Shown here: one piece after another, positions 49,909 to 64,000 of the stretch
Layout of the letters: the number at the start of each line of letters is the position of its first letter
Position numbering within the stretch: position 1 is the first letter of the stretch
Assembly: GCF_030063305.1 (NCBI RefSeq)
Contig: NZ_JASISV010000001.1
Span: 124,001-188,000, forward strand
Origin: Salinibacterium sp. G-O1
Lineage (GTDB): Bacteria > Actinomycetota > Actinomycetes > Actinomycetales > Microbacteriaceae
Length of the DNA stretch: 64,000 nucleotides
Direction of reading: 5' to 3'
Translations under genes and position numbers: made by a program
The notes under the pieces: generated by a model
The model's input: only the letters and a program-made list of their open reading frames with translations
Databases searched by the model: none
Told to the model about the DNA's origin: nothing

Positions 49909-49923
49909 TGATTGGACTTACCC

Positions 49924-51423
49924 ATGACGCAATTCGCCCACCGCGAATATCCCTGGCAGGCTGCCAACTCCGCCCGCAGGCCCATGCAGCGCACCCGTGT
50001 GCAGCCCGCACGCTGGGTCAGGACGTTCTCAACCATCGTGACGGCAAGCGATCTCGTGACGGTCATCATGGCCACGACGGCCACGCACCTGACCTGGTTC
50101 GGATTCCGCGAGGTGATGGTCAGCGCGCCCTCATCGATCGGCGTCAACTACTTCACGGTGTCAATGCTCCTGGTCGTCGCGTGGATGACCGTGCTCGCCG
50201 CCTCCGGCTCGCGGGATCCGCAGATCCTCGGCACTGACCTGACCGAGTACCGGAGAGTTATCAACGGCACGCTGCTGCTGTTCGGCGCGATCGGCGTGTT
50301 CGCAGCAATGACGCAGACCGACTTTGCCCGCGGTTACCTCATCACCGCTTTCCCGCTCGGACTGCTGCTGCTGATCGTCTCGCGCTGGTCGTTGCGCCGC
50401 TGGTTGCATGTGCGTCGTCGCCGCGGTGACTTCACGTTCCGCGTGCTGATCATCGGCACGATGGATAACGTTCGCGAACTCATGGCGGCCCTCGCCCAGC
50501 GCCCGGATGCCGGATACCGCGTCATCGCGGCATTCATCACGGACGTTTCTGACCCCGATCCCATTCCCGGCGTGAGGGTCAGGGCAGCGAATCGCGGTTC
50601 GCTGTTCGAGGGACTGCAGGATGTCTCGGCAGATACCGTCGTTGTCGTCGGCTCGGATGACCTCTCGTCAGCCACCATCAACGAGCTCAGTTGGGAGTTG
50701 GACCCCGGGCAGCAGCTGGTGGTCGCACCCCAGCTCGTCGGGGTCGCGGGGTCGCGCATCCACACCCGTCCCGTTGCCGGGCTGCCACTGATTCACGTCG
50801 AGACGCCCTCCTACGACGGACCCAAGCGGTTCCTTAAGCGGGCGTTCGACATCGTCGGGTCATTCCTGTTGATCGTGATGCTCGCGCCGGTCTTGCTGCT
50901 GACCATCATCCTCGTGGCGTTGTCGTCACCGGGCCCGATCTTCTACCGCCAGGAGCGCATCGGTCTGAGCGGCGCACCGTTCATGATCCTGAAGTTCCGC
51001 AGCATGGTCACAGGAGCAGACTCCAGACTTACCGCACTCCTGCGGGAGCAGGGCACGGCAGACGTGCCGCTGTTCAAGCTCGCAAACGACCCAAGGGTCA
51101 CACCGATCGGTGCGATCCTGCGCCGCTATTCGCTCGACGAACTGCCGCAACTCTTCAACGTGTTGTTCGGCGACATGAGCCTCGTCGGCCCGCGGCCCCA
51201 GGTTGATGGCGAGGTGCGCATGTACGACTCGAAGTCGAGCCGCCGCCTCGCGGTGAAGCCGGGGATGAGCGGCCTGTGGCAGGTCAGCGGCCGGTCGAAC
51301 CTCTCGTGGGAGGACAGCATCCGCCTCGATCTTTACTACGTCGAGAACTGGTCGGTCACCAGCGACATCGTCATTCTGCTGCGCACCTTGCGGGCGGTCA
51401 TCGGCCACAACGGGGCTGTCTGA
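49924..51423 (+). CDS. Polyprenyl-phosphate glycosyl-1-phosphate transferase (WbaP/CpsE type)
   Basis: A 499-residue initiating transferase. Four or five N-terminal membrane segments (about residues 35-165) and a central Rossmann-like domain (VLIIGTMDNVRELM) precede the C-terminal bacterial sugar transferase domain, with KRAFDIVGSFLL, YRQERIGLSGAPFMILKFRSM and SLDELPQLFNVLFGDMSLVGPRP. It links the first sugar phosphate to undecaprenyl phosphate at the inner membrane face, beginning the repeat unit. ATG 49924 is taken as the start; TTG 49912 is a weaker alternative. It leads the operon that continues to 56033. Confidence 0.93.
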   Translation: MTQFAHREYPWQAANSARRPMQRTRVQPARWVRTFSTIVTASDLVTVIMATTATHLTWFGFREVMVSAPSSIGVNYFTVSMLLVVAWMTVLAASGSRDPQILGTDLTEYRRVINGTLLLFGAIGVFAAMTQTDFARGYLITAFPLGLLLLIVSRWSLRRWLHVRRRRGDFTFRVLIIGTMDNVRELMAALAQRPDAGYRVIAAFITDVSDPDPIPGVRVRAANRGSLFEGLQDVSADTVVVVGSDDLSSATINELSWELDPGQQLVVAPQLVGVAGSRIHTRPVAGLPLIHVETPSYDGPKRFLKRAFDIVGSFLLIVMLAPVLLLTIILVALSSPGPIFYRQERIGLSGAPFMILKFRSMVTGADSRLTALLREQGTADVPLFKLANDPRVTPIGAILRRYSLDELPQLFNVLFGDMSLVGPRPQVDGEVRMYDSKSSRRLAVKPGMSGLWQVSGRSNLSWEDSIRLDLYYVENWSVTSDIVILLRTLRAVIGHNGAV

Positions 51424-51424
51424 T

Positions 51425-53509
51425 TTGTCGACAACCAGAGTGCTGCACGTGGTGGAAAGCTGGGGCAGCGGTGTGCGCGCCGCAGTGCTCGAGTTCGCGA
51501 CTCTGACCCCGGAGTTCGAGCACCACCTGCTGCGCGGCGTCTCCCGCAGCGAGTTCGCCGACGATGGTGAAGCCGTGTTTGCGAGCATCCACGACCTGCC
51601 GTCCGGGCTGTTGCCGTCGATGGCGGCCGTTCGCTCCCGCGCTGCGCAGTTGTTTCCGGATGTCGTGCACGCGCACTCTTCCCATGCGGGCATGGCGGTC
51701 AGGCTCGCGCTGAGGAGCACCCGTCGTCGTCGGGTGGTGTACAGCCCGCACTGTTTTGCGTTCGAACGCACCGATCTCCCGTGGGCGGTTCGCTCGGCTG
51801 TGCGCGTCGCCGAGCGCGCGCTCGCGGCCAATACCTCGGTGGTCGCGGCCTGTTCCCGCGCCGAGGCCAGCAGCGCGTCATCCCGCCGTGTCGTTTTCGT
51901 ACCGAACGTGTCGCGCATTCCCGCAACTGCCCCCCGCGCGGGACAGGATTCGCGGCGGATCGTCACCGTGGGTCGCGTCGGGGCGCAGAAAGATCCCGAC
52001 TTCTTCCGTGACGCAGTCGACCTGCTGCGCCACAGCGGGCACACGATCGAGCCACGATGGATCGGCGCCGGTGACGATGCGGCCGCGACCGCAAGACTCG
52101 AGGCCGCTGGCATCGCCACCACGGGCTGGCTCGTCGCTGCTGACGCGTTTCGCGAACTTGCCGGTGCTCGCCTGTACCTGCATACCGCTCGCTGGGAGGG
52201 ATTTCCGCTCGCGATTCTTGAGGCGATCGACCTCGGCATCCCGGTCATCGCACGCGAGGTCCCCACCCTCGCCGGCGCGATCGCGACCCCGGGCATCCGT
52301 ACCCCGGCACAGATGGCGGATGCCGCGGCAGAGCTTCTGGCGGGAGGCGCCGATGCCACCGGGCGGAACCTTGACGCCTGGCGCACGCTACTCGCGGGCA
52401 ACACCGTGGAACAGCAGGCTGCCGCCCTTCGGCGCGCGTATGTGACACGACCGCAGATTCTGATCAACGGCAAATGGCTGGGCGCCCGCCAGAGCGGGAT
52501 GCAGCGGTTCGCGGGCGAGGTAGCCCAGCGCGTGCTCGACCTGGAGCCTGACTCTCGCGTTCTGGTTCCTCGCGGCGCAGAGCTTCCCGACTGGCTGCCG
52601 GTCGATCGCACAACACGCTCCCGGCTGCGGGGCATGCTCTTCGAACAACTCGCGCTGCCGTGGATGGCCAGGGGCGCGATGCTGCTGAACCTCGCGGGTG
52701 CCGCGCCGCTGGTCGGGCGTGAGCAACTCGTGGTGATGCACGACGCCACGCCCGCCCGCTTCCCCGCCACCTTCTCGCGGGCGTTTGTGCTCTGGTATTC
52801 GCTGATGAACCGCGTGGCCTCGCGACGTTCGCGTCATCTCAGCACCGTGTCGGAATTCAGCCGCGCGGAGCTCAGCGAGGTGCTCGGCGTTCCCGCAGAT
52901 CGCTTCACCGTCACCCCGAACGGTGCGAGTCACCTCCCGCTTGTGGCCGGCGTCGACAATCCCGAGCTTGAGGCTCGCATCACCGGCGACTACGTCGTGT
53001 GCGTGGGCAACCTCACCCCGAACAAGAACCTCGCCCCGGTGACGACGGCGCTCGCCCGCGCCGGGCTCAGCGTGATCGTTGTCGGTGCTGGTGGCGCGAG
53101 CCGCGTGTACGCACAGCAATCCGGGTTGGATGAGCCGGGAATCTGGCTCGCAGGGCGGCTGAACGACGCCGAACTGGCCCTCGTCATCTCCCGCGCGGAG
53201 GCGCTCGTATTTCCCTCTCTGTATGAAGGCTTCGGCCTGCCCATCGTGGAGGCGCAGGCGCTCGGCTGCCCCGTCATCGCCTCAGATCGCTCGTCGGTGC
53301 CCGAGGTTGCGGGTGAGGGCGCGCTGTACTTCGACCCCACGATTCCGCAGCAGGCCGTTGACCTGGTGCGCGGCCTCGACGCAGCGCAACGGCAGCGCCT
53401 CGTCGCCCGCGGGTACCGCAACGCCGCGCGGTTCTCCTGGGACTCCACCGCGGCATCCATTCTTGACCGCGCCCTCGGTCTTCAAGCGAAAGAGCCGGTG
53501 ACCGCGTGA
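51425..53509 (+). CDS. Fused double GT4 glycosyltransferase
   Basis: A 694-residue protein holding two glycosyltransferase family 4-like modules. Module 1 (about residues 1-340) has an N-terminal VLHVVESWGSGVR and the donor site YLHTARWEGFPLAILEAIDLGIPVIA. Module 2 (about 341-694) begins ILINGKWLGARQSGMQRF, and has LSTVSEFSRAELSEVLG, NLTPNKNL and FPSLYEGFGLPIVEAQALGCPVIASDRSSVPEV. Both keep the EX7E-type Glu pair, so both may be active, adding two successive sugars. It starts at TTG 51425 just after the upstream stop; an internal GTG would truncate module 1. The stop overlaps the next start. Confidence 0.88.
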   Translation: MSTTRVLHVVESWGSGVRAAVLEFATLTPEFEHHLLRGVSRSEFADDGEAVFASIHDLPSGLLPSMAAVRSRAAQLFPDVVHAHSSHAGMAVRLALRSTRRRRVVYSPHCFAFERTDLPWAVRSAVRVAERALAANTSVVAACSRAEASSASSRRVVFVPNVSRIPATAPRAGQDSRRIVTVGRVGAQKDPDFFRDAVDLLRHSGHTIEPRWIGAGDDAAATARLEAAGIATTGWLVAADAFRELAGARLYLHTARWEGFPLAILEAIDLGIPVIAREVPTLAGAIATPGIRTPAQMADAAAELLAGGADATGRNLDAWRTLLAGNTVEQQAAALRRAYVTRPQILINGKWLGARQSGMQRFAGEVAQRVLDLEPDSRVLVPRGAELPDWLPVDRTTRSRLRGMLFEQLALPWMARGAMLLNLAGAAPLVGREQLVVMHDATPARFPATFSRAFVLWYSLMNRVASRRSRHLSTVSEFSRAELSEVLGVPADRFTVTPNGASHLPLVAGVDNPELEARITGDYVVCVGNLTPNKNLAPVTTALARAGLSVIVVGAGGASRVYAQQSGLDEPGIWLAGRLNDAELALVISRAEALVFPSLYEGFGLPIVEAQALGCPVIASDRSSVPEVAGEGALYFDPTIPQQAVDLVRGLDAAQRQRLVARGYRNAARFSWDSTAASILDRALGLQAKEPVTA

Positions 53510-54684
53510 AGATCATCCAGTTCACCAGTTCATTGCTCGCACCACTGGGTGGAGCCGAGCAATACTGCATCGAAATCTCGCGCTGGCTGCGTGACCAGGG
53601 TCACGACGTGACGATCATGACCGGATGGATTTCCCCGGAGGTGCAGGAGTCGCTAGCGGCCGAAGGGCTCCCCGTGACTGTCGTGCGCAGCCGCAGGCCC
53701 TACCCGCCAGACCGCAAGGGGCCACGGCCCGCCGCTGTGCTGTTCCACCTGCTCGACCTCCTCGGAACCGTGCGGCTATCGCCGACCCTGCACCGCGCTG
53801 TGCGCGACGCCGACGTGGTGCACGTTCACCGGCTCCACGGTTTTGGTACCGCGATTCTTCGCCACCCCGGCGTCGCGATGACCGTGCACGACTACGGTCT
53901 CGTCGACACGACGACGATGCTGCTGCGGCATGGCAACCAGGTGGATGCCCCACTCGTGCAGCGCCTGCGTGCAGCGTTGATCGGCCGCACCGCGCGCACG
54001 GCAACGCTGATTTTTCCCACGGGGAGGTTGCGAGACAAGCACGCCGCGTGGGGGCTCAGGATGCCGGAGCGCACCGAGGTGATCCCGCACGGCTGGCGCA
54101 TGAAGGCCACAGTCGCTGAGCCGAAGACCGGCCCTGTCGTGTTTCTGTACCTCGGCAAGCTGGTCACCACGAAGGGGGTCGAACTCCTGCTTGAGGCGTG
54201 GGGAGAAGGCATCTCTGGCGCGGAACTCTGGATTGCCGGAGCGGGCGATCTCGAACCGGAGGTGCTGCGCGCGGCGGCGGCTGGCAGGGTTCGCTATTTG
54301 GGCTGGGTTGACGCCGCCCAGCGCAGCGCCGCGCTCAGTTCCGCGTCTGCTCTTGTGGTGCCGTCGCTATGGCCGGAGAACTTCCCGCTCGTTGCCGCCG
54401 AGGCGGTCTTGGCAGGACTGCCCCTCATCAGCACGACCATCGCGGCCCCGCCCGTGCTGGAGCATCGCGGCAACGGGTTGCTGGCTGAACCGAACGCGGT
54501 CGATCTGCGCGGCGCGATGGTGACCATGCTCAGCAGCTCGCGTCGAGCCGAGCTGGCATCCGGCAGTCGTACACTCGCCGGCAGCCTCGACTTCGACCTG
54601 CACGGCAACCGAATCGTTCGGCTCTACAACCAGATCGTCCCCGGCGCCTCGGGGGTCGGGTCGAAAGGCCGCGGACTGCAGTGA
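53506..54684 (+). CDS. GT4 glycosyltransferase
   Basis: A 392-residue GT-B enzyme. The start KIIQFTSSLLAPLGGAEQYCIEIS is the acceptor-side signature of GT4 enzymes; FLYLGKLVTTKGVELLLEAW and PSLWPENFPLVAAEAVLAGLPLIST form the nucleotide-sugar site. It adds one sugar of the repeat unit on the cytoplasmic face. GTG 53506 overlaps the upstream stop by four bases, and its stop overlaps the GTG of the polymerase. Confidence 0.92.
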   Translation: MKIIQFTSSLLAPLGGAEQYCIEISRWLRDQGHDVTIMTGWISPEVQESLAAEGLPVTVVRSRRPYPPDRKGPRPAAVLFHLLDLLGTVRLSPTLHRAVRDADVVHVHRLHGFGTAILRHPGVAMTVHDYGLVDTTTMLLRHGNQVDAPLVQRLRAALIGRTARTATLIFPTGRLRDKHAAWGLRMPERTEVIPHGWRMKATVAEPKTGPVVFLYLGKLVTTKGVELLLEAWGEGISGAELWIAGAGDLEPEVLRAAAAGRVRYLGWVDAAQRSAALSSASALVVPSLWPENFPLVAAEAVLAGLPLISTTIAAPPVLEHRGNGLLAEPNAVDLRGAMVTMLSSSRRAELASGSRTLAGSLDFDLHGNRIVRLYNQIVPGASGVGSKGRGLQ

Positions 54685-56033
54685 TCACCATCCTCGGCAT
54701 CGTTACGATCGCAGCGGTCTGTGCCGTCTGGTTTCTGAAGCGCGAGTGGATGCAGTTCGTGGTCGGCGTGGCAGTGGCGTTCCCGCAGACCGCCGGACTG
54801 ATCGTGCTCGGCAACGGGTTCCCGCTGTTCTACCTTGCCGTCGTCATGATCGCTGTCCTGAGCATCCCGTATCTCCTGTTTGCGATCGCCGCGCCGGATC
54901 GCGTGCCGGCTATCGACTCGCGCGGGCTCACGGTCCCTGACCGTCTGGCTCTTGCGCTGGTCGCGTGGGCCGCCGTCATCACCATCGCCGGTCCGCGAAT
55001 ATTTCGGGGGATGCGGGTTTTCGCGCCAGAGCTGGGCGTCGACGCTCAGGTGACGAATATGGCCATGTTGCAGCCGTCTCTCGGCAACCTCGCCCAGCTC
55101 GGCTATCTGACGTTTGCCGTGCTGTTCCTGCTGCTGTCTGGCCGGATGTTCCAGGTCGATCGTCGCATCCTCGGCACCGCGCTGTGGGTGTCGATAGTGC
55201 TCGCCGCGGTGCGGATCGTCGCTGAGCCGTTTTGGCCCCGCGCGTTACTGCAGAACATGCCCACCTTCAACTACGCCACGCCAGAGCGGCTCTCCGGCAC
55301 GTTTTATGAGCCGTCTGTGCTCGGGCTGTATCTGGTGGCGGCTGCCGGGTATTTTGTGGCGCGGCTGTTCGCCCCCAGCGCTGGTGGTCGTATCCCGGCG
55401 GTGATCGCTCTCGCCCTCGTGGCGATCGATTTCGCCATGAACGAATCCGGTACGGCGCTTCTCGGCCTGGGGGTGCTCGGAATGCTTGCGGCGGTGTTCG
55501 CATTCGTGAGGTTGGCGGCGGCTCCCCGGCAGCGTGTGCGGCCGTTGCTGGTCGCCGGCAGCGTTGCCGCGATCGGACTCGTGCTGACGCAGCTTCCCTT
55601 GCTGGTCTCTCTCGCCGCTGGTTCCGCCGAAGACAAGGCGGACTCCAAAAGTTTCGTCGCCAGGACCGCCTCGAACTTACGGTCACTGCAGATCACGATC
55701 GAGAGCGCAGGACTCGGAATCGGCCTCGGCGGCAACCGTCCATCCAGTTTCTTCTTCCTGGTGCTGAGTTGCCTCGGAATCCTGGGTCTTGGGTTGCTCG
55801 CCGCACTCGTCGTCGTTGCCCTCACCAGGGCGTTGCGAATCGCCGTGGCGTCACCCGCCGCGTGGGGCCTCGCCGGTGTGCTGATCGCCGCGATCGTGGC
55901 GGTTCCTGATCTGTCGATGCCGGTGATCTGGATTTCGCTCGCTGCCTGCCTGTTCCCCTGGCGGCCACCTCAGGTCGAGGTCGAAAATCTCAGGCGGCGC
56001 GCTTACCCAATTCCTGTCGCGCTCGCCGACTGA
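54681..56033 (+). CDS. O-antigen polymerase/ligase-like membrane protein (Wzy candidate)
   Basis: A 450-residue protein with about eleven to twelve membrane segments and a large external loop (about residues 190-230, LLQNMPTFNYATPERLSGTFYEPSVLG). A second loop near ESAGLGIGLGGNRPSS resembles the GxGxG region of Wzy/WaaL-type proteins. In this setting it most likely polymerises lipid-linked repeat units outside the membrane. It ends the first polysaccharide operon and runs 44 bases into the convergent glycosyltransferase gene. Confidence 0.8.
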   Translation: MITILGIVTIAAVCAVWFLKREWMQFVVGVAVAFPQTAGLIVLGNGFPLFYLAVVMIAVLSIPYLLFAIAAPDRVPAIDSRGLTVPDRLALALVAWAAVITIAGPRIFRGMRVFAPELGVDAQVTNMAMLQPSLGNLAQLGYLTFAVLFLLLSGRMFQVDRRILGTALWVSIVLAAVRIVAEPFWPRALLQNMPTFNYATPERLSGTFYEPSVLGLYLVAAAGYFVARLFAPSAGGRIPAVIALALVAIDFAMNESGTALLGLGVLGMLAAVFAFVRLAAAPRQRVRPLLVAGSVAAIGLVLTQLPLLVSLAAGSAEDKADSKSFVARTASNLRSLQITIESAGLGIGLGGNRPSSFFFLVLSCLGILGLGLLAALVVVALTRALRIAVASPAAWGLAGVLIAAIVAVPDLSMPVIWISLAACLFPWRPPQVEVENLRRRAYPIPVALAD

Positions 56034-56874
56034 GCGACCAGCGCTCGACTGGCGCTAACGCGCCAAGCGACGCCGTGAAGCGGTGGATGAACGGGTCGAG
56101 CAGTTCGCGCCCATGCGCGGTCAGGGGTCCGCTGCGCGTAAACGCGAGCTCAGGGAACCACGGCATTGAGTCTGTGCCCCACAACCGCTGCAGCAGCGCC
56201 TGGTATGAGCGTCGGAGCGTCGGGTCTGTGGCAAGACTTTCGCGCCAGCCGGCAGCCCCGCTGACCTGCGTGGCGCTGACCCTGATCAGCACGGTCGGCC
56301 GTGCGAGGCGCCTCAGCACGGCGCCGTTCGCCGCAGCGCGCAGCCAGAGGTCGTAGTCCTCTGCGATCGCGGATGGCTGATAGCCACCCGCGTCCCGGAG
56401 CGCATCCGTGCGAGCGAGCATCGTGGAATGAGGGTACGGGCAGTCGACGAGCAGAGCTGCAGCAGCGGCATCCGGCCCGAAAGTGATGGGCGGAACAGGC
56501 TTCCGAAGGCCGCCCCCGATCATCTGATAGGTGGAGAACACGACATCGGCTCCCTGGTCGATAGCCGCCAGCTGGGCCCGGAATCTGCCGGGCAGGCTCA
56601 CATCGTCGGAGTCCATGCGCGCCACGAATTCACCGCTGGCGCGCGCGAGAAGGTGCTGGCCAGCGAGCGCGACTCCGCGTTGCTTCCCGCCCGGGATCAC
56701 TGTGACTCTGGGGTCACCAGTGGATGCCGCAATCGCTGCAGTGTCGTCGGTGCTGGCATCGTCGAGCACGAGCAACTCTGAGTCTGGTGGCATGGCGCGA
56801 AGTGTGGACACCACCGCCGAGCGGATGGTGGCGCTGGAGTTGCGCGCAGGCATGAGAACGCTCAGGCGGGGCAC
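55990..56874 (-). CDS. GT2 glycosyltransferase, encoded on the opposite strand
   Basis: A 294-residue GT-A enzyme. The start LSVLMPARNSSATIRSAVVSTL and the DDASTDDT and MDSDDVSLPGRF motifs (DxD) define family 2. It would transfer a sugar from a nucleotide donor. It is the only minus-strand gene of the locus, and its last 44 bases overlap the end of the polymerase gene. GTG 56874 is the start (MPRLSVLMPARN). Its divergent neighbour is the carrier-protein module; the direct repeat at 56942 lies in the 283-base gap between them. Confidence 0.9.
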   Translation of the reverse strand: MPRLSVLMPARNSSATIRSAVVSTLRAMPPDSELLVLDDASTDDTAAIAASTGDPRVTVIPGGKQRGVALAGQHLLARASGEFVARMDSDDVSLPGRFRAQLAAIDQGADVVFSTYQMIGGGLRKPVPPITFGPDAAAAALLVDCPYPHSTMLARTDALRDAGGYQPSAIAEDYDLWLRAAANGAVLRRLARPTVLIRVSATQVSGAAGWRESLATDPTLRRSYQALLQRLWGTDSMPWFPELAFTRSGPLTAHGRELLDPFIHRFTASLGALAPVERWSLSRRARQELGKRAA

Positions 56875-57157: not shown

Positions 57158-57586
57158 ATGCACAGCACCCGAGCTGGCGCACCCGTCGCACCCCCGCGCG
57201 TACGGGTGGGCTGCGATCTGCAGCGCGTTGCCGAGGTGAGCGAGAGCGTTGCGTTGTTTGGCGCGCGCTACCTTGATCGCGTTTTCACTCCCGTGGAGCG
57301 GGCGCTCTGTACCGGCTCCCATTCGGCCGAGAGACTTGCTGGCCGGTGGGCCGCTAAGGAGGCTGTAGCAAAAGTGCTGCGTGTGCCTTCCTCGGCCTCG
57401 CTGCCGTGGAGCAGTATCGAGATCGGCGCCGAGGAATCCGGTGCTCCAACTGTCTCCCTGCTGGGCCCCGCTGCCGAGCTGGCCGCGCAGGCGGGACTCT
57501 CCCACATCGACGTTTCCATCACCCACGACGGAGGTTTCGCGCTCGCGTTCGCCGCCGCAATCGAACAGGAAGAGTGTGCAGCATGA
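57158..57586 (+). CDS. AcpS-type 4'-phosphopantetheinyl transferase
   Basis: A 142-residue holo-ACP synthase-like enzyme with the Mg-binding Asp in VGCDLQRVAEV and the catalytic helix RLAGRWAAKEAVAKVL. It attaches the phosphopantetheine arm from CoA to the carrier protein encoded next (four-base overlap). A dedicated transferase beside a single carrier protein suggests this ACP is not served by the housekeeping AcpS. AAGGA lies eight bases before ATG 57158. First gene of the 57158-62920 operon, in which neighbouring genes overlap or touch. Confidence 0.9.
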   Translation: MHSTRAGAPVAPPRVRVGCDLQRVAEVSESVALFGARYLDRVFTPVERALCTGSHSAERLAGRWAAKEAVAKVLRVPSSASLPWSSIEIGAEESGAPTVSLLGPAAELAAQAGLSHIDVSITHDGGFALAFAAAIEQEECAA

Positions 57587-57834
57587 GCCGCCTCGACACC
57601 ATCCACGGCGTACTCGACACTCACGGGAAGCTCGGCTCCGCGGCAGCGACGGTACCTGCGGGTGCCGACCTCTTCGCCCACGGAATGACCTCGCATGCGA
57701 GCGTCAATGTGATGCTCGCTCTCGAGGACGCCTTCGAGATCGAATTCCCCGACGAACTTCTGACCAAGGCCACATTCGGCACGATCGAAGCAATCGCGGC
57801 TGCCGTCGATGCGCTGTCGCCGGTGGCGGCATGA
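57583..57834 (+). CDS. Stand-alone acyl/aminoacyl carrier protein
   Basis: An 83-residue four-helix carrier protein. The phosphopantetheine site is S37 in GMTSHASVNVML, where fatty-acid ACPs have DSL; helix 2 then reads LALEDAFEIEFPDELL. The replacement of DSL by TSH occurs in carrier proteins that partner aminoacyl-carrier-protein ligases rather than fatty-acid synthase. Its neighbours, a dedicated phosphopantetheinyl transferase and an amino acid:CP ligase, support that role. Start and stop overlap adjoining genes by four bases. Confidence 0.92.
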   Translation: MSRLDTIHGVLDTHGKLGSAAATVPAGADLFAHGMTSHASVNVMLALEDAFEIEFPDELLTKATFGTIEAIAAAVDALSPVAA

Positions 57835-58994
57835 CACTGATCTCGATCGCACCGCTGTCGCTGCTCGAGCGGGCCGAACACGCCGCAGGTATTGCAGGGC
57901 AGTTCGCGGCAGACGTGGATGTCACGGCTCGATTCCCCGCGGAGGCCGTCGCCGCACTCCGCGAGTCGGGTCTGCTCGCAGCGTCGGTCCCACGGCGATT
58001 CGGTGGCGAGGGTGCCAGCCTGACCGAGCTCGCACAGGTTGCTGAGCTGCTGGGCGCAGCCTGCTCGTCGACCGGAATGGTGTTTGCGATGCATCACAGC
58101 CAGGTGCTCAGCCTGTCGAGGCATCTGGCGGGCGCGCCTGCGATAGAGCGCGTCGTCTCGCGCATCGCCGCCGACGGCCTGCTGGTCGCTTCGGCGACGA
58201 CAGAACTCGGGGTCGGCGGGGACGTGCGCTCGAGCCTGTGCTTCGTCGACGCAAGCGGCGGGGCGACAACGCTCGTCAAGAACACCCCCGTCATCTCCTA
58301 CGGCTCAGAAGCCGACCTCATTCTGGTGACGGCCCGCCGCGACGCCGATAGCGCCCCGGGCGACCAGGTACTCGTGGTGTGCGACCGCGCAGACACCGCA
58401 CTGGAGCGCACCGGAACGTGGGACACCATGGGCCTGCGCGGAACGTCAAGCTTCGGCTACCTGCTCACCGCCACCGTCGCGGCCGAGCGAGTCGTTCCCG
58501 TCGCGTACGAAACCATCTCGACCGAGACGATGCTGCCCGCCGCGCATGTGCTGTGGGCGGCGGTCTGGCTCGGGATGGCGCGCTCGGCTACCGACATCTC
58601 GCGCCGCTACGTGCGGGCGACGGCCCGCAGAAGCATCGGCACCATTCCGGCAGGAGCGACAGCTCTCGTGGGACTTGTAGCCGAGCTTGAACGCTTCGAA
58701 TCACTCGTCGCGTCGAGTGCCCACAGGTTCGACGAAATCGCCGACGATCGAGACGCACTCGGCAGCGTTGGCTTCGTGGTGAGCATGAACAACCTGAAGG
58801 TCACGGCATCCACCCTGGTGGCAGACATGGTGGCGCGTGCCCTGAACATCACCGGAATCTCCGGCTTCCGCAACGACGGACCGTACAGCGTCTCCCGGTT
58901 GTTCCGCGACGCTCAGGGAGCCGCCCTGATGGTGCACAACGACCGGATCACAGCCAACACCGCCCACCGTATCCTCATCCAGAAGGGGTCATGA
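57831..58994 (+). CDS. Acyl-CoA-dehydrogenase-like flavoprotein, probably acting on a carrier-bound substrate
   Basis: A 387-residue protein of the acyl-CoA dehydrogenase family: an N-terminal helical domain (ESGLLAASVPRRFGGEGASLTELAQVAELLG), the beta domain with WDTMGLRGTSSFGY, and the C-terminal helical bundle ending SVSRLFRDAQGAALMVHNDRIT. In classical members the last segment contains the catalytic Glu (YEG-T); here the place reads MVHND, so that base is missing or elsewhere. The position between carrier protein and ligase genes suggests oxidation of an aminoacyl or acyl thioester on the carrier, as prolyl-carrier-protein oxidases do. Substrate unknown. Confidence 0.85.
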   Translation: MTLISIAPLSLLERAEHAAGIAGQFAADVDVTARFPAEAVAALRESGLLAASVPRRFGGEGASLTELAQVAELLGAACSSTGMVFAMHHSQVLSLSRHLAGAPAIERVVSRIAADGLLVASATTELGVGGDVRSSLCFVDASGGATTLVKNTPVISYGSEADLILVTARRDADSAPGDQVLVVCDRADTALERTGTWDTMGLRGTSSFGYLLTATVAAERVVPVAYETISTETMLPAAHVLWAAVWLGMARSATDISRRYVRATARRSIGTIPAGATALVGLVAELERFESLVASSAHRFDEIADDRDALGSVGFVVSMNNLKVTASTLVADMVARALNITGISGFRNDGPYSVSRLFRDAQGAALMVHNDRITANTAHRILIQKGS

Positions 58995-58995
58995 C

Positions 58996-59952
58996 ATGAC
59001 CGACATCGCAACCAGTGACGACACCGCAACCCAGCTGGCCACCGCCCGAATCGCCTTCAGGAATGAGCTGCTCGACGCCGGCATCCTGATCGCGTCGTCG
59101 GTCGCCGGCGTGTATGGGCGATCCGGGACGTTCGAGTCGATCATCACCGGGCTCGACGCACTCCTCGCCCGGATGGCGGCACCGCTCAACGCGCAGGTGC
59201 TGCGCTTCCCGCCCGTCTACCCGCGCGTCGACTTCGAGCGCACCGACTACATCGCATCGTTCCCTGACCTGAGCGGCGTCGTCTCGAGCTTCGAGCGCGG
59301 CGACAAGGAGCACGCGGCCCTGCTCAGCGCCCGTGCAGACGGCGAAGCGTGGGACGGCTGGCTCGACCCGACCGATGTCGTGCTGACTCCCGCCATCTGT
59401 CATCCCCTTTACGCCACCCTCGAGGGCAGGCTCCCCGAGGAAGGCGGCGTCTTCGACCTCGCTGGCTACGGCTTCCGCCACGAGCCGTCAGAAGATCCCA
59501 TGCGCATGCAGTCATTCCGGATGCGCGAGTTCGTCTTCGTGGGCACCCCGGATGCCGCCCAGGTCTACCGGGACTCCTGGCTCGACCGGGCCATCGAGAC
59601 CCTCGCGTCGCTGGGTCTCGCCGTGGATGCGGTCCCCGCCAACGACCCGTTCTTCGGGCGCGCCGGACGCATGCTCGTCAACGCCCAGCTTCGGGAGAAC
59701 CTGAAGGTCGAGATCATCGTGCCGCTCTATGGCGACCTGCACGAGGGCACGGCGATCGCTTCGGCCAACTGCCAGCGTGATCACCTGACGGCAGCATTCG
59801 GAATTCTCACCCACGACGGTGACGTCGCCCACGGTGCCTGTGTCGCCTTCGGCATGGAGCGCACGGCCCTCGCACTGCTGCGCACCCACGGACTGAACCC
59901 CGCCGAATGGCCCGAGGGCGTGCGCGATCTGCTGGGACTCTGCTCGACATGA
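58996..59952 (+). CDS. Amino acid:carrier-protein ligase, seryl-tRNA-synthetase-like
   Basis: A 318-residue protein resembling the catalytic core of an atypical SerRS but without the tRNA-binding arm. Motif 2-like FRMREFVFVG and motif 3-like ACVAFGMERTALALL mark the class II active site. C135 (TPAICHPLY), E178 and C282 lie where the zinc ligands of Bradyrhizobium amino acid:CP ligase are (C131, E176 and C279, from memory). That family activates glycine or alanine with ATP and loads it onto a carrier protein instead of tRNA. The carrier protein and its phosphopantetheinyl transferase lie just upstream. The amino acid here is not known. Confidence 0.88.
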   Translation: MTDIATSDDTATQLATARIAFRNELLDAGILIASSVAGVYGRSGTFESIITGLDALLARMAAPLNAQVLRFPPVYPRVDFERTDYIASFPDLSGVVSSFERGDKEHAALLSARADGEAWDGWLDPTDVVLTPAICHPLYATLEGRLPEEGGVFDLAGYGFRHEPSEDPMRMQSFRMREFVFVGTPDAAQVYRDSWLDRAIETLASLGLAVDAVPANDPFFGRAGRMLVNAQLRENLKVEIIVPLYGDLHEGTAIASANCQRDHLTAAFGILTHDGDVAHGACVAFGMERTALALLRTHGLNPAEWPEGVRDLLGLCST

Positions 59953-61637
59953 TGGTCGACACGTGGCTGGGTGACCCCGAAACCCCCCTGCTCGGCTTCC
60001 TGCACCTCCCGGATGGCGGTGTCGCGCGAAGTGGCGTGGTCATCTGCCCGCCCTTTGGTTTCGACCAGGTCCAGGCCTACCGGGCCATGCGGTTCGTTGG
60101 GCAGGAGCTGGCCGGACGGGGAATCGCAGCATTGCGTTTCGATTACCTCGGCGAGGGCGACTCGAGCGGGTCCACCGCGGCGTCCGATGCCGCTGAAGGC
60201 TGGATGGCCAGCATCCGGCATGCCATCCAGTACCTCCGCGATTCAGGGGTGCAGCAGGTGGCGCTGCTCGGGCTGGGCAGCGGCAGCCTCGTGGCGGCTG
60301 AGGCGGCGGCCACGGAGGATGTGGCAAGCCTGGTGCTGTGGGATCCGGAGCTGTCTGGACGGCGGTTCATCCGGAAACAGCGTTCGCTGTATGAACTCGC
60401 CGTGGGCGGAACGCAGGACCAGGCCGATGACAGCAATGCGCTCGTGGCGTTCTCCCTGCATTCCACGGCCATGGAGTGGCTGAAGGTCAGGGAGACGACG
60501 GTTGCGTCCCTCACCGCCCTCGGCATCGAGACCCTCGTGCTCGGCCGCAGCGCCTACGCGGCGAACCCGGCACTCGGGCGGCTCGCCGCGGCGGAGGTCG
60601 ACAGCATCCATTTCAGGTCGATTGATGGCCAGGAGGGCCTTCTCGAAGTGCCCGGCGAGTTGGCGGTACTTCCGGTCGACGACATCGGCGCGCTGGTCGA
60701 CTGGCTCGATCAGCGGGCTCCGGCTGTAGCATCCGCACTCACTCCGGTCATCACGCCGGAGGCCGTCGTCGGAACCGCACCCGACGGTGGGGACATCGTG
60801 GAGAGGCTCCACCGGGTCGGTGAGCACGACCTTTTCGCCATCGAGACAACGAGCGCGGCAGCTGATGACAACCTCGTGGTGCTGCAACCAGGAGCGTCAG
60901 AACACCGGGTGGGTCCGAGTCGGTTCCAGGTGCTCGCCGCGCGGGAGCTCGCTGGCCGCGGCCGGCGCGCCGTGCGTTTCGATCGCAGGATCACCGGCGA
61001 CACCACAGAGGTCGTGCCCGGCGAACCCACCCTCATGTTCGCGCAGGAGTGGGTCGACGATACCCATGCGTTGCTCGCACGTTTCGCTCCGACCGGGCTC
61101 GCGATGGTGGGCCTGTGCGCGGGTGGCTGGGTGGGGGCCAGGGTTGCAGAGCAGCACCCGGCGCTGCTGACAGTGCTGATGAGCCCGAACTACTACAAGA
61201 CCACACCGCTGAAGCCCGGGCACTACTCCGTGCTCGCGGCCGAGGCAGGAAAGGAATCACGGCTGCGCGCCCTCAAGGGTGCCGTGAAAAAGCACATCCC
61301 GGGCTGGCTCTGGCGTGTGATGTCGAGACTGCAGTTGTTCCATGACCCGGCCGTGCTTCTCGCGGCTCCCAGCCGTCCCGGCAGCACCGTCGCTGTGCTA
61401 CTGACCCCGGCGGATGCCGTCAACTTCGCCGTCCGCCGTGGCCCAGAGGCGGTCGACCGGCTGACGCGTCGTGGCGCCGACGTTCGCATCATCAACTATT
61501 CGGTGGGGGATCACTCCCTCTACGGGGAGCAGATCCGGCACGAGATGATGGATGACCTGCTCGCGCTGGTCGAAGAGACCATGCCGCGCGCCGGCAGTGG
61601 TGCCGCAGCCACCATGACGTCAGCGACGCTCGCGTGA
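59949..61637 (+). CDS. Tandem alpha/beta hydrolase; candidate acyl/aminoacyl transferase
   Basis: A 562-residue protein of two alpha/beta hydrolase modules. Module 1 (about residues 1-255) has GLGSGS at the nucleophile elbow, so the nucleophile is Gly at residue 110 and no catalytic His is evident; it seems inactive or structural. Module 2 (about 290-550) has GLCAGG with Cys390 as nucleophile, and H522 in VGDHSLYGE. GxCxGG is the box of PHA synthases, which act on thioesters. I infer a thioester-using transferase or thioesterase taking the aminoacyl group off the carrier protein. ATG 59949 overlaps the upstream stop; its stop overlaps the flippase start. Confidence 0.82.
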   Translation: MMVDTWLGDPETPLLGFLHLPDGGVARSGVVICPPFGFDQVQAYRAMRFVGQELAGRGIAALRFDYLGEGDSSGSTAASDAAEGWMASIRHAIQYLRDSGVQQVALLGLGSGSLVAAEAAATEDVASLVLWDPELSGRRFIRKQRSLYELAVGGTQDQADDSNALVAFSLHSTAMEWLKVRETTVASLTALGIETLVLGRSAYAANPALGRLAAAEVDSIHFRSIDGQEGLLEVPGELAVLPVDDIGALVDWLDQRAPAVASALTPVITPEAVVGTAPDGGDIVERLHRVGEHDLFAIETTSAAADDNLVVLQPGASEHRVGPSRFQVLAARELAGRGRRAVRFDRRITGDTTEVVPGEPTLMFAQEWVDDTHALLARFAPTGLAMVGLCAGGWVGARVAEQHPALLTVLMSPNYYKTTPLKPGHYSVLAAEAGKESRLRALKGAVKKHIPGWLWRVMSRLQLFHDPAVLLAAPSRPGSTVAVLLTPADAVNFAVRRGPEAVDRLTRRGADVRIINYSVGDHSLYGEQIRHEMMDDLLALVEETMPRAGSGAAATMTSATLA

Positions 61638-62920
61638 GCCGCGATGCCGCGAGAGTGACTCGTGTCAGGGCGCTGGGACTGTACGGACTCACGGTGGTTC
61701 TCAATGGCACCGTAAGCCTCGTCAGCATTCCGATCGTTGTCGCCATCGTCGGCGCCGACCAGTGGGCATCAATGGCCACCGGTCAATCGATCGGTGGCGC
61801 CCTCGCAGTTTTTGTTGCGTTCGGCTGGGGCCTGACCGGTCCGGCGACCGTGGCAAGGCTCGCGCCCCACCTGCGCCAGCAACTGTTTCTCGACTCGCTT
61901 TTTGCCAGGGGATTACTCGTACTGCCGGTCGTCGTGGTGCATGCGGTAGCCACCATCGCCATCGTGCCGCACGCCAAACCTGTCGCGTTTTTTGCAGGCC
62001 TCGCGATGCTTCTGGCCGGCGTATCCGCTGGCTGGTTCTTCGCGGGAGAGAGCAGGCCGGGGCGCTTTCTCGTTCTCGACACGGTTCCCCGTGTCGCGGG
62101 AACCATCCTCGGGTTGGTGCTGGTCATCCTTACCCAAAACCTGCTGCTCTTCGCGCTCGCGCAGCTCCTCGGATCGCTGGTGGCACTCGCCGTATCCGCG
62201 TGGGTGATTTTGCACGGGCGAGGACTCGACTTCCGAGCCGCAGCGCGGTTCAGGGTCATCGCCGGAAATCTTCTCGAGCAGCGCCATGGCGTCGTGGCGA
62301 CGGGTATCTATTCCCTGTTTACTCCCGCCGTGCTCGGACTTGTGGCGGTCGTATCTCCCACGCTACTTCCCCAGTTCGTGTTGGCCGACAGGCTCTCCAA
62401 ATTCGTCAGCATGGCGGCATCGCCGCTCGGCCAGGTTTTCCAGGGTTGGGTGCCAGCAGTCACCGGCCGGGAGCTCGCGCGCAGGCTGCGCGTCTCCGGC
62501 ACCATCACGACGAGTCTCGCGCTCTCGGCTGGCGTGGGGTTCATGGTGTTCCTGCGCCCCTTCAGCGAATTAATGACCCATGGACAGGTCAATTACACCG
62601 TCGCCGCGGCCGTGGCCTTCGGACTGGTCGCCATGACCCAAATCGCGTTTCCCTACCTCTCGAACGTCGGCCTGATGGCGGTCAATCGCCTCAGCGTCAT
62701 CGTCACGTCGGTTGCGGTCGGTGTGCCGGTGGCGCTCGTGCTTCTCGTCGTCGTCGAATTCGTCGCTCCGGAACACACGGTCTGGGCGCTGGTGGCCGGC
62801 AACGCAATAATGGTGGGCTGGCAGCTGGCGTCGCTGCGCGCGGCGACCCGGCAGCTCGCGGATGCCGAACGGCCGACGGCTCCCTCACAAACAGAGCCCG
62901 TCCCCAGCGGCGGCAGGTGA
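61634..62920 (+). CDS. Polysaccharide flippase (Wzx-like, MOP superfamily)
   Basis: A 428-residue protein with about twelve membrane segments, weakly conserved as is usual for Wzx. Landmarks are FLDSLFARGLLVLPVVVVHAV and NLLEQRHGVVATGIYSLFTPAVLGL. It would move the lipid-linked repeat unit across the membrane before polymerisation. Being translated with the carrier-protein module (four-base overlap at 61634) suggests the modification occurs on the lipid-linked unit before or during export. A direct-repeat site begins four bases after its stop. Confidence 0.82.
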   Translation: MSRDAARVTRVRALGLYGLTVVLNGTVSLVSIPIVVAIVGADQWASMATGQSIGGALAVFVAFGWGLTGPATVARLAPHLRQQLFLDSLFARGLLVLPVVVVHAVATIAIVPHAKPVAFFAGLAMLLAGVSAGWFFAGESRPGRFLVLDTVPRVAGTILGLVLVILTQNLLLFALAQLLGSLVALAVSAWVILHGRGLDFRAAARFRVIAGNLLEQRHGVVATGIYSLFTPAVLGLVAVVSPTLLPQFVLADRLSKFVSMAASPLGQVFQGWVPAVTGRELARRLRVSGTITTSLALSAGVGFMVFLRPFSELMTHGQVNYTVAAAVAFGLVAMTQIAFPYLSNVGLMAVNRLSVIVTSVAVGVPVALVLLVVVEFVAPEHTVWALVAGNAIMVGWQLASLRAATRQLADAERPTAPSQTEPVPSGGR

Positions 62921-63112: not shown

Positions 63113-64000
63113 ATGGACATCCACGAATACTTTGGCGTGCTTCGTCGCGGCTGGGCGCTCATCGCGCTCGGGCTGCTTGTCGGTCTCGTCGGGGCCGCCG
63201 GTGCGCAAACACTGCAGGTTCCGACCTACACGGCAACCTCCCGCGAGCTGTTGACCACGGACACCTCCGGCAACCTCGCTCAGTCGCTGCAGGCAACCAC
63301 GTTCGCGGAAGGGCGCATCGCCTCCTACGTGCTCGTCGCCTCGAGCGGTCTGGTGCTGCAGCCGGTTATCGACGAGCTCGGCCTCGACATGACCGTCGAG
63401 GAGCTGGCAGCAGACCTCGTCGTGACGGCGCCCGCCCAGACACTCGTGATCGACATCACCGCCACCGCGGCCACGCCCAGGCGCGCCCGGGACATCGCCA
63501 ACACCACAAGCCGGGTTTTCAGCGAGGTTGTGACCGCGCAGGTGCAGCCCCTGACAGTCGTTCCCGTCGATCCCGCAGCAGTCGTCGACCCGGCAGCGCC
63601 CCCGGTGGAGCCGGTGACCGTCGTCCCCATCCGCATCGTCAACATCGAGAAAGCGTCCCTGCCTCCAGCCGCCCCGAGTTCGACGGCGCTGATCCTGCTC
63701 CTCGGCAGCTTCCTGGGGCTCGCCGCGGGCCTGGTCGGCGCGTCGCTGCGTGAGTCGATGGATCGCCGCATCCGCAACCGCGCCGGAGTCGCCGCCATCA
63801 CTGCAGCTCCGGTCCTCGGCGCCATCCGGGGCGACCGCAAAGCCAGGATGTCGCCGCTCGTGGTTGCCGAAGCCCCAGACAGCGGCATCGCGGGATCGTT
63901 CCGGGCGCTGCGCGCCAACCTCGAGCACGTGCGCGTTCGCGGCGAGTTGAACAGCTTCGTCGTGACCGGCATCGCGTCGCGCCAGGGAACATCCACGGTG
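63113..64000 (+). CDS. Polysaccharide chain-length determinant / tyrosine-kinase-like protein (3' end outside window)
   Basis: The first 296 residues of a Wzz/BY-kinase-like protein, open to the window edge. It begins with MDIHEYFGVLRRGW and a first membrane segment (about residues 15-33), followed by an external domain with the coiled region ATTFAEGRIASYVLVASS, a Pro/Val-rich stretch and the second segment (about 203-225, ALILLLGSFLGLAAGLVG). The cytoplasmic part starts SFRALRANLEHVRVRGELNSFVVTG. The phosphate-loop position reads RQGTST where kinases have GEGKST, so the Walker Lys is Thr. It probably controls polymer length. ATG 63113 has GGAG 11 bases upstream. Confidence 0.87.
   Translation, partial: MDIHEYFGVLRRGWALIALGLLVGLVGAAGAQTLQVPTYTATSRELLTTDTSGNLAQSLQATTFAEGRIASYVLVASSGLVLQPVIDELGLDMTVEELAADLVVTAPAQTLVIDITATAATPRRARDIANTTSRVFSEVVTAQVQPLTVVPVDPAAVVDPAAPPVEPVTVVPIRIVNIEKASLPPAAPSSTALILLLGSFLGLAAGLVGASLRESMDRRIRNRAGVAAITAAPVLGAIRGDRKARMSPLVVAEAPDSGIAGSFRALRANLEHVRVRGELNSFVVTGIASRQGTSTV

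Follow-up and report, generated by a model that had tools for sequence, protein, structure and literature searches.

Several bacterial systems give a carrier-activated amino acid to a surface glycan or lipid; in brief, the Dlt system D-alanylates teichoic acids and AlmEFG glycylates lipid A. Another group of amino acid:carrier-protein ligases resembles seryl-tRNA synthetase (SerRS), and those of the Bll0957 type from Bradyrhizobium reportedly load glycine or alanine on carrier proteins. We found neither an end product nor a polysaccharide locus described for Bll0957-type ligases in the open-licence literature searched. Here we describe a gene cassette with a SerRS-like ligase from Salinibacterium sp. 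G-O1, a member of the Microbacteriaceae. It lies on contig NZ_JASISV010000001.1 (assembly GCF_030063305.1), in a stretch of 64,000 nucleotides (positions 124,001 to 188,000, forward strand) that is called the window and whose own numbering is used below. Five open reading frames at 57158-61637 encode a 4'-phosphopantetheinyl transferase (PPTase), a carrier protein, an acyl-CoA-dehydrogenase-like (ACAD-like) flavoprotein, the SerRS-like ligase and a tandem alpha/beta-hydrolase, with polysaccharide genes on both sides. We did not find such a cassette in a polysaccharide locus described in the open-licence literature searched. We suggest that it serves the carrier-dependent aminoacylation of a glycan precursor, a best reading that we rate just short of an even chance.

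Gene content of the cassette

All five genes are encoded on the + strand. The PPTase (57158..57586) is of the AcpS type (PF01648, 61.9 bits, cut-off 25). The carrier protein (57583..57834) has 83 residues with S37 in a TSH motif, and matches NF005480 (86.4 bits, cut-off 72). The third gene (57831..58994) encodes a flavoprotein with the ACAD fold that lacks the canonical catalytic Glu; it matches PF02771 (47.0 bits over 22.9) and PF00441 (39.5 over 22.4), and stays under the cut-off for PF02770 (21.7, cut-off 33.3). The ligase (58996..59952) matches NF005479 (398.2 bits, cut-off 357) and carries C135, E178 and C282. The tandem alpha/beta-hydrolase (59949..61637, alternative ATG at 59907) has a C390/D489/H522 triad in its C-half and an N-half without nucleophile. 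Neighbouring genes share four bases, except for a one-base gap between the ACAD-like and ligase genes, and the overlap with the following flippase gene is also four bases. An earlier note on this DNA, made from the letters alone, had placed the same five genes here; the families match, its description of the carrier is confirmed, and both carrier and ligase score above curated cut-offs.

By its sequence, the window ligase is a member of the NF005479 amino acid:[carrier protein] ligase family. Among PDB entries it matches Bll0957 chains best (E 1e-67 and 1e-65), and like the Bradyrhizobium ligases (Bll0957; PDB 3mey, 4h2w) it has the Zn triad and an adjacent carrier. The residues C135, E178 and C282, which we take to bind Zn, are invariant in 20/20 aligned ligases, in line with the zinc triad named in the earlier note. 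In six loci (L036, L044, L046, L050, L051, L052) a single reading frame of 204-218 residues encodes both PPTase and carrier, which supports the view that the two proteins would work together. ATP-grasp ligase homologues were observed near the carrier ligase in L053 (four), L054, L071 and L122, possibly a peptide-forming variant.

NF005479 was found in 10/396 genomes of the phylum and in 21/398 genomes of the family (the window's genome included in both), and in none of the nine other genomes of the same genus listed. The 20 related family loci encode PPTase, carrier and ligase in all cases and the ACAD-like protein and the tandem hydrolase in 19 each. All five genes are present together in 18/20, as tested by presence in the stretch. 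In the wider set, at least 567 ligase places were found in named genomes and the best 80 of them were analysed. These hold the carrier (78), the ACAD-like gene (71), the tandem hydrolase (57), a DUF1839 gene (45), the PPTase (43) and a GH2-like gene (40). It should be noted that contig ends cut some loci, so that all absence counts are upper bounds. The GH2-like gene never occurs without DUF1839 in the 80 loci, and the tandem hydrolase or DUF1839 is present in 76/80, as in 21/22 loci with a WcaJ-type initiating transferase. Neither was found in L052, L105, L113, L122 and L130, of which L105 begins at the ligase. The core of the cassette seems to be the ligase, the carrier and the tandem protein (or DUF1839), with the flavoprotein as an optional member. 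In one locus (L059, G139) two cassette ligases lie approximately 10 kb from each other, and DUF1839 and GH2-like genes accompany only one of them.

Tandem protein, DUF1839 and flavoprotein

The structure model of the tandem hydrolase has a pLDDT of 92.9 and a pTM of 0.93. Structural matches of its N-half are esterases and lipases (best Z 22.9, root-mean-square deviation (rmsd) 3.3, 241 residues aligned), including a myristoyl-acyl carrier protein (ACP) thioesterase, and its C-half matches a dienelactone hydrolase (Z 20.0, rmsd 2.7, 204 aligned). Polyhydroxyalkanoate synthase was not among the structural matches listed, and its absence is not evidence. Dienelactone hydrolases use a Cys nucleophile. 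Residues were counted in the window protein and 74/79 homologues, after open-ended or short rows were dropped. Position C390 is Cys in 74/75 rows and Ser in one, D489 is Asp in 71/75 and H522 is His in 75/75. At position 110, in the N-half elbow, 74/75 rows have Gly, Arg, Ala or Thr and one has Ser. The earlier note had labelled the protein a hydrolase. With a C-half Cys in 74/75 rows and no N-half nucleophile in 74/75, it reads better as a putative Cys acyltransferase.

If it were a hydrolase, the tandem protein could be a thioesterase: it would release the modified amino acid, to be joined to a nucleotide sugar or glycan by another enzyme. The fold and the N-half matches to esterases and the myristoyl-ACP thioesterase fit such a role; we consider it improbable, given that Cys replaces Ser in 74/75 rows and that the locus genes scanned include no amide-forming ligase or nucleotide-sugar acyltransferase.

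A similar pair of proteins is encoded in exosortase-A exopolysaccharide (EPS) loci. Among NCBIfam models, the N-half resembles exosortase-A hydrolase 2 and the C-half hydrolase 1, with scores that fall short of the cut-offs for the window protein and for each of the five homologues that were scanned. For the window protein, TIGR03100 gives 61.3 bits (cut-off 168.45) and TIGR03101 gives 78.5 bits (cut-off 202.75), so that neither cut-off is reached. Hydrolase 1 is above cut-off in 11/40 genomes of the family of genome G817, and ten loci were returned. The Cys elbow reads GLCAG in the window C-half and GLCD[GA]A in 10/10 of these genuine hydrolase 1 loci. Locus L156 encodes, in order, a TIGR03098 ligase, an 83-residue ACP, hydrolase 2 and hydrolase 1, with the family members above their cut-offs and a weak ACP match. 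Hydrolase 1, a ligase, an ACP and a pyridoxal phosphate (PLP) decarboxylase are present in L155, where hydrolase 2 falls outside the scan. The exosortase-A set (TIGR03098, ACP, TIGR03101, TIGR03100) is like the cassette in combining a ligase, an ACP and the same alpha/beta-hydrolase pair, with a Cys elbow in hydrolase 1. It differs by a ligase of the AMP-binding (ANL) type, by a gene for each hydrolase and, in L155, by an additional PLP decarboxylase. One transfer pair may be served by two unrelated ligases, one in the cassette and one in exosortase-A loci. One report refers to a link between N-acyl amino acid synthases and exosortase loci, another possible use of ACP there (PMC7293339).

Another report suggests quality control as the role of a TIGR03100 protein that an EPS cluster of Burkholderia encodes (PMC3584217). 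By that precedent, the tandem hydrolase would check the quality of the secreted polysaccharide, and the remaining four genes would serve something separate. We hold this to be highly improbable, as this gene is also found behind the ligase in cassettes that stand alone and, in exosortase loci, together with ACP and ligase.

DUF1839 is a papain-like family of the same superfamily as BtrH, and has another fold than the tandem hydrolase. BtrH transfers an ACP-bound acyl group to an aminoglycoside (PMC10318531). Residues C33, T31, H149 and H240 are invariant in the 44 DUF1839 rows kept out of 48. DUF1839 was not found in 18/20 related family loci, which hold the tandem hydrolase, and none was seen in the window locus. 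The GH2-like gene that accompanies DUF1839 hints at a sugar substrate.

The model of the flavoprotein (pLDDT 92.2) has the ACAD fold, with Z 41.4, rmsd 2.4 and 359 aligned residues against 8i4p. By fold, a dehydrogenase and a flavin monooxygenase are not separable here (best dehydrogenase Z 41.4, DszC 39.6). The canonical Glu of ACADs has a catalytic role in dehydrogenation. In the phmmer alignment with 3pfd, V368 of the window protein falls at the Glu of that protein's C-terminal YEG motif. This position is Val in 79/92 rows, Ile in 13/92 and Glu in 0/92 (the window and 91/98 hits; four low-scoring and three short hits were dropped). H88, H239 and R372 are invariant in the 92 rows, and N370 is present in 91. 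Classical alpha,beta-dehydrogenation by this flavoprotein is doubtful on its residues, and it is impossible for glycine because glycine has no beta carbon. The ACAD-like gene is moreover missing from the fetched stretch in 6/22 loci with a WcaJ initiating transferase. A flavoprotein without the canonical Glu, and absent from these loci, therefore leaves the perhaps oxidised amino acid of the earlier note without support. An NADPH-dependent FMN reductase gene (PF03358; L184:388-999, also in L036) lies head-to-head with the end of the tandem hydrolase gene, and is a possible flavoprotein partner. The hint of a two-component monooxygenase from the L184 flavin reductase was not used; tblastn gave no homologue in the other loci searched.

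Association with polysaccharide genes

Genes for initiating transferases (PF02397) are found within 10 kb of the ligase in 6/21 family genomes and within 20 kb in 8/21. The family density of PF02397 (36 matches in approximately 72.6 Mb) gives a chance of about 0.01 per 20 kb. Compared with this, the 6/21 genomes with a nearby PF02397 gene correspond to p 4e-8, kinship ignored. Among the best 80 named loci, the fetched flanks of 16 hold WcaJ homologues and 43 have a hit to any of four polysaccharide profiles. Densities were obtained for 41 genomes that the authors chose from the 80 named ones; the sample does not include the window's clade (L065-L068). PF02397 was matched 110 times in 213.4 Mb of these genomes, which predicts 0.42 near the cassettes; 9 were seen (approximately 20-fold). 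GT4-type genes numbered 41, in 16/41 loci, with 2.8 predicted. This 14.6-fold excess is rough, as the yardsticks are unlike (an own profile near the cassette, PF13692 genome-wide). Counting the nine WcaJ loci as six lineages among 20 or 27 assumed lineages gave p < 1e-6.

In the ligase tree, the WcaJ label falls on 22/103 rows and requires 12 changes, at least 8 of them forced by well-supported branches. The tree omits ligases L060-L064 and the same-genome duplicates L068, L104 and L116; the duplicates stay in the residue and 80-locus counts. The link between the cassette and polysaccharide loci appears to have been made or broken on repeated occasions. All six rows of the window's clade (support 100/100) are linked to WcaJ, and the clade keeps the order WcaJ, glycosyltransferase, glycosyltransferase, Wzy, GT2, cassette, Wzx.

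A Tsukamurella plasmid, one of seven annotated plasmid records, provides a distant example. Approximately 10 kb encode a polyprenyl glycosylphosphotransferase, a PPTase, a glycosyltransferase, the carrier, the ligase, two glycosyltransferases, a lipopolysaccharide biosynthesis protein, a glycosyltransferase and a 531-residue 'hypothetical protein'. The latter carries the elbow GVCSG and gives matches to the tandem hydrolase in both of its halves. An ACAD-like gene was not found in 20.9 kb of this plasmid.

The flippase and polymerase have homologues elsewhere in the family. Wzx homologues were found in 98/398 family genomes. After the window's own, the three best (55, 61 and 34%) are on a contig with a cassette, the third approximately 12 kb away. 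The Wzx of G685 (35%), also approximately 12 kb from a cassette, ranks under several from genomes without one. Polymerase homologues occur in 9/398 family genomes; the pair at 56-60% comes from the cassette-bearing G436 and G506, and none of the other six (32-38%) is beside a cassette by the positions listed. This pattern fits recognition of a modified unit by flippase and polymerase.

Many cassettes are found in other settings. Eight Curtobacterium loci adjoin genes read in L038 as fabH, fabD, a PucR-type regulator, pyruvate dehydrogenase E1 and AhpC. Polysaccharide profiles gave no hit in 20 kb in 7/8 of these, where the cassette has genes of fatty acid synthesis as neighbours; in the remaining locus (L046, G685) glycosyltransferases and WcaJ are encoded. 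In L049 the cassette is placed before SpoU and pheST genes. In L050 (6192-7811) a WXG100-like protein with a TNT domain is encoded beside the cassette, a likely secreted effector and unrelated. In five of the seven plasmid records, ACP, ACAD, ligase, DUF1839, GH2-like and alpha/beta-hydrolase genes lie together outside annotated polysaccharide loci. In the sixth, from Rhizobium acidisoli, the cassette is beside nif genes and the alpha/beta-hydrolase is not in the stretch. This cassette (L188:8261-14400) comes right after the nif genes and an annotated exopolysaccharide production repressor gene; its GH2-like gene gives matches in several frames, is unannotated and looks broken.

Such loci would be expected if the cassette formed a pathway of its own, leading to a small aminoacyl-derived metabolite or glycoside. 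The tandem protein would then release or condense the product, and the polysaccharide setting would be due to chance or shared regulation. The 7/8 Curtobacterium loci, those of Azospirillum, Phyllobacterium, Mycetohabitans and Rhizobium acidisoli, and the ATP-grasp genes beside some ligases all favour it. We regard it as rather unlikely in view of the enrichment of polysaccharide genes near the cassette, the repeated association on the ligase tree and the full gene order kept in the window's clade.

Aminoacylation of a glycan also has evidence to answer. Many cassettes stand alone with DUF1839 and the GH2-like gene, with no polysaccharide gene annotated adjacent, and the plasmid sample favours a stand-alone pathway as much as a glycan target. 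Homologues of the window-type Wzx are also found in genomes without the cassette, and no sugar-specific gene in the locus points to the acceptor. The only row with Ser at the C-half nucleophile (L046:7840-9507, G685) comes from a polysaccharide locus. Finally, the search of 21 family genomes gave 13 with no PF02397 gene within 20 kb, although contig ends may hide some. All of these weigh against our proposal. The last also bears on the earlier note, which had called for a genome survey and would have given up its idea if the genes lay away from polysaccharide loci in most relatives. Within the family the survey gives just this outcome, with the majority of cassettes elsewhere, and the wider sample shows an enrichment (9 against 0.42). 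In our view the family count is too strict a measure and not decisive, because the wider enrichment and the repeated changes of association on the ligase tree outweigh it.

Surrounding locus and known carrier-dependent systems

In the locus, the cassette is preceded by a WcaJ-type transferase, glycosyltransferases and a putative polymerase, and followed by a flippase and a Wzz-like gene. The initiating sugar-phosphate transferase (49912..51423, +; PF02397, 222.4 bits, cut-off 27) is followed by a fused double GT4 glycosyltransferase (51425..53509, +; PF13692 in two stretches, 119.9 bits) and a further GT4 glycosyltransferase (53506..54684, +; PF13692, 81.8 bits). Next come a putative Wzy-like polymerase (54681..56033, +), named by position only as no Pfam or NCBIfam match was found, and a GT2 glycosyltransferase on the opposite strand (55990..56874, -; PF00535, 83.9 bits). 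Behind the cassette are a Wzx-like flippase (61634..62920, +; PF01943, 26.9 bits, slightly under the cut-off of 28.2) and a Wzz-like chain-length determinant (63113..64000, +; PF02706, 24.9 under 25.5). The latter has a weak P-loop NTPase match and runs on for approximately 1.4 kb beyond the window (L183:1113-3380). It is followed by a gene for an 839-residue protein with a LuxR-type GerE domain (L183:3396-5912, window approximately 65396-67912, - strand), a possible regulator of the locus. Family models establish the initiating transferase and the glycosyltransferases of a Wzx/Wzy-type locus, and the embedding among polysaccharide genes stands as first described. The names flippase, Wzz and polymerase rest partly on position, which makes the Wzx/Wzy assignment weaker than the earlier note implied.

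We propose the following scheme, in which we infer the amino acid, the transfer chemistry, the acceptor and the timing. The PPTase would turn the carrier into the holo-carrier. The SerRS-like ligase would adenylate a small amino acid, glycine or alanine by the Bradyrhizobium precedent, and attach it to the carrier through a thioester bond. The group held there may be altered by the flavoprotein, perhaps not by dehydrogenation. The C-half Cys of the tandem protein would take over the acyl group, and the lipid-linked repeat unit would then receive it on a hydroxyl or amino group; export by the adjacent flippase would follow. Of the aminoacylated polysaccharide put forward in the earlier note, the glycan target is retained as the best reading, and the hydrolase role and the oxidation are not supported. 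A broader claim is possible, though on the doubtful side: that SerRS-like carrier ligases chiefly aminoacylate glycans via a Cys-dependent transferase, either the tandem hydrolase or DUF1839, by a transfer step common to the 'hydrolases' of exosortase-A EPS loci. If true, carrier ligases descended from aminoacyl-tRNA synthetases would gain a physiological role, and two orphan 'hydrolase' families would be reassigned as transferases.

None of the eight PF00501 matches of the genome, which would indicate an ANL-type ligase, lies within the window. The Dlt and AlmEFG systems use such an ANL-type ligase and other transferases, whereas the window encodes a class II synthetase-like ligase and a candidate Cys transferase of the alpha/beta-hydrolase fold. 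The likeness lies in giving a carrier-activated amino acid to a surface glycan or lipid, a transfer that is here proposed. If the proposal is true, a class-II-synthetase route would join the known carrier-dependent ways of aminoacylating bacterial surface sugars.

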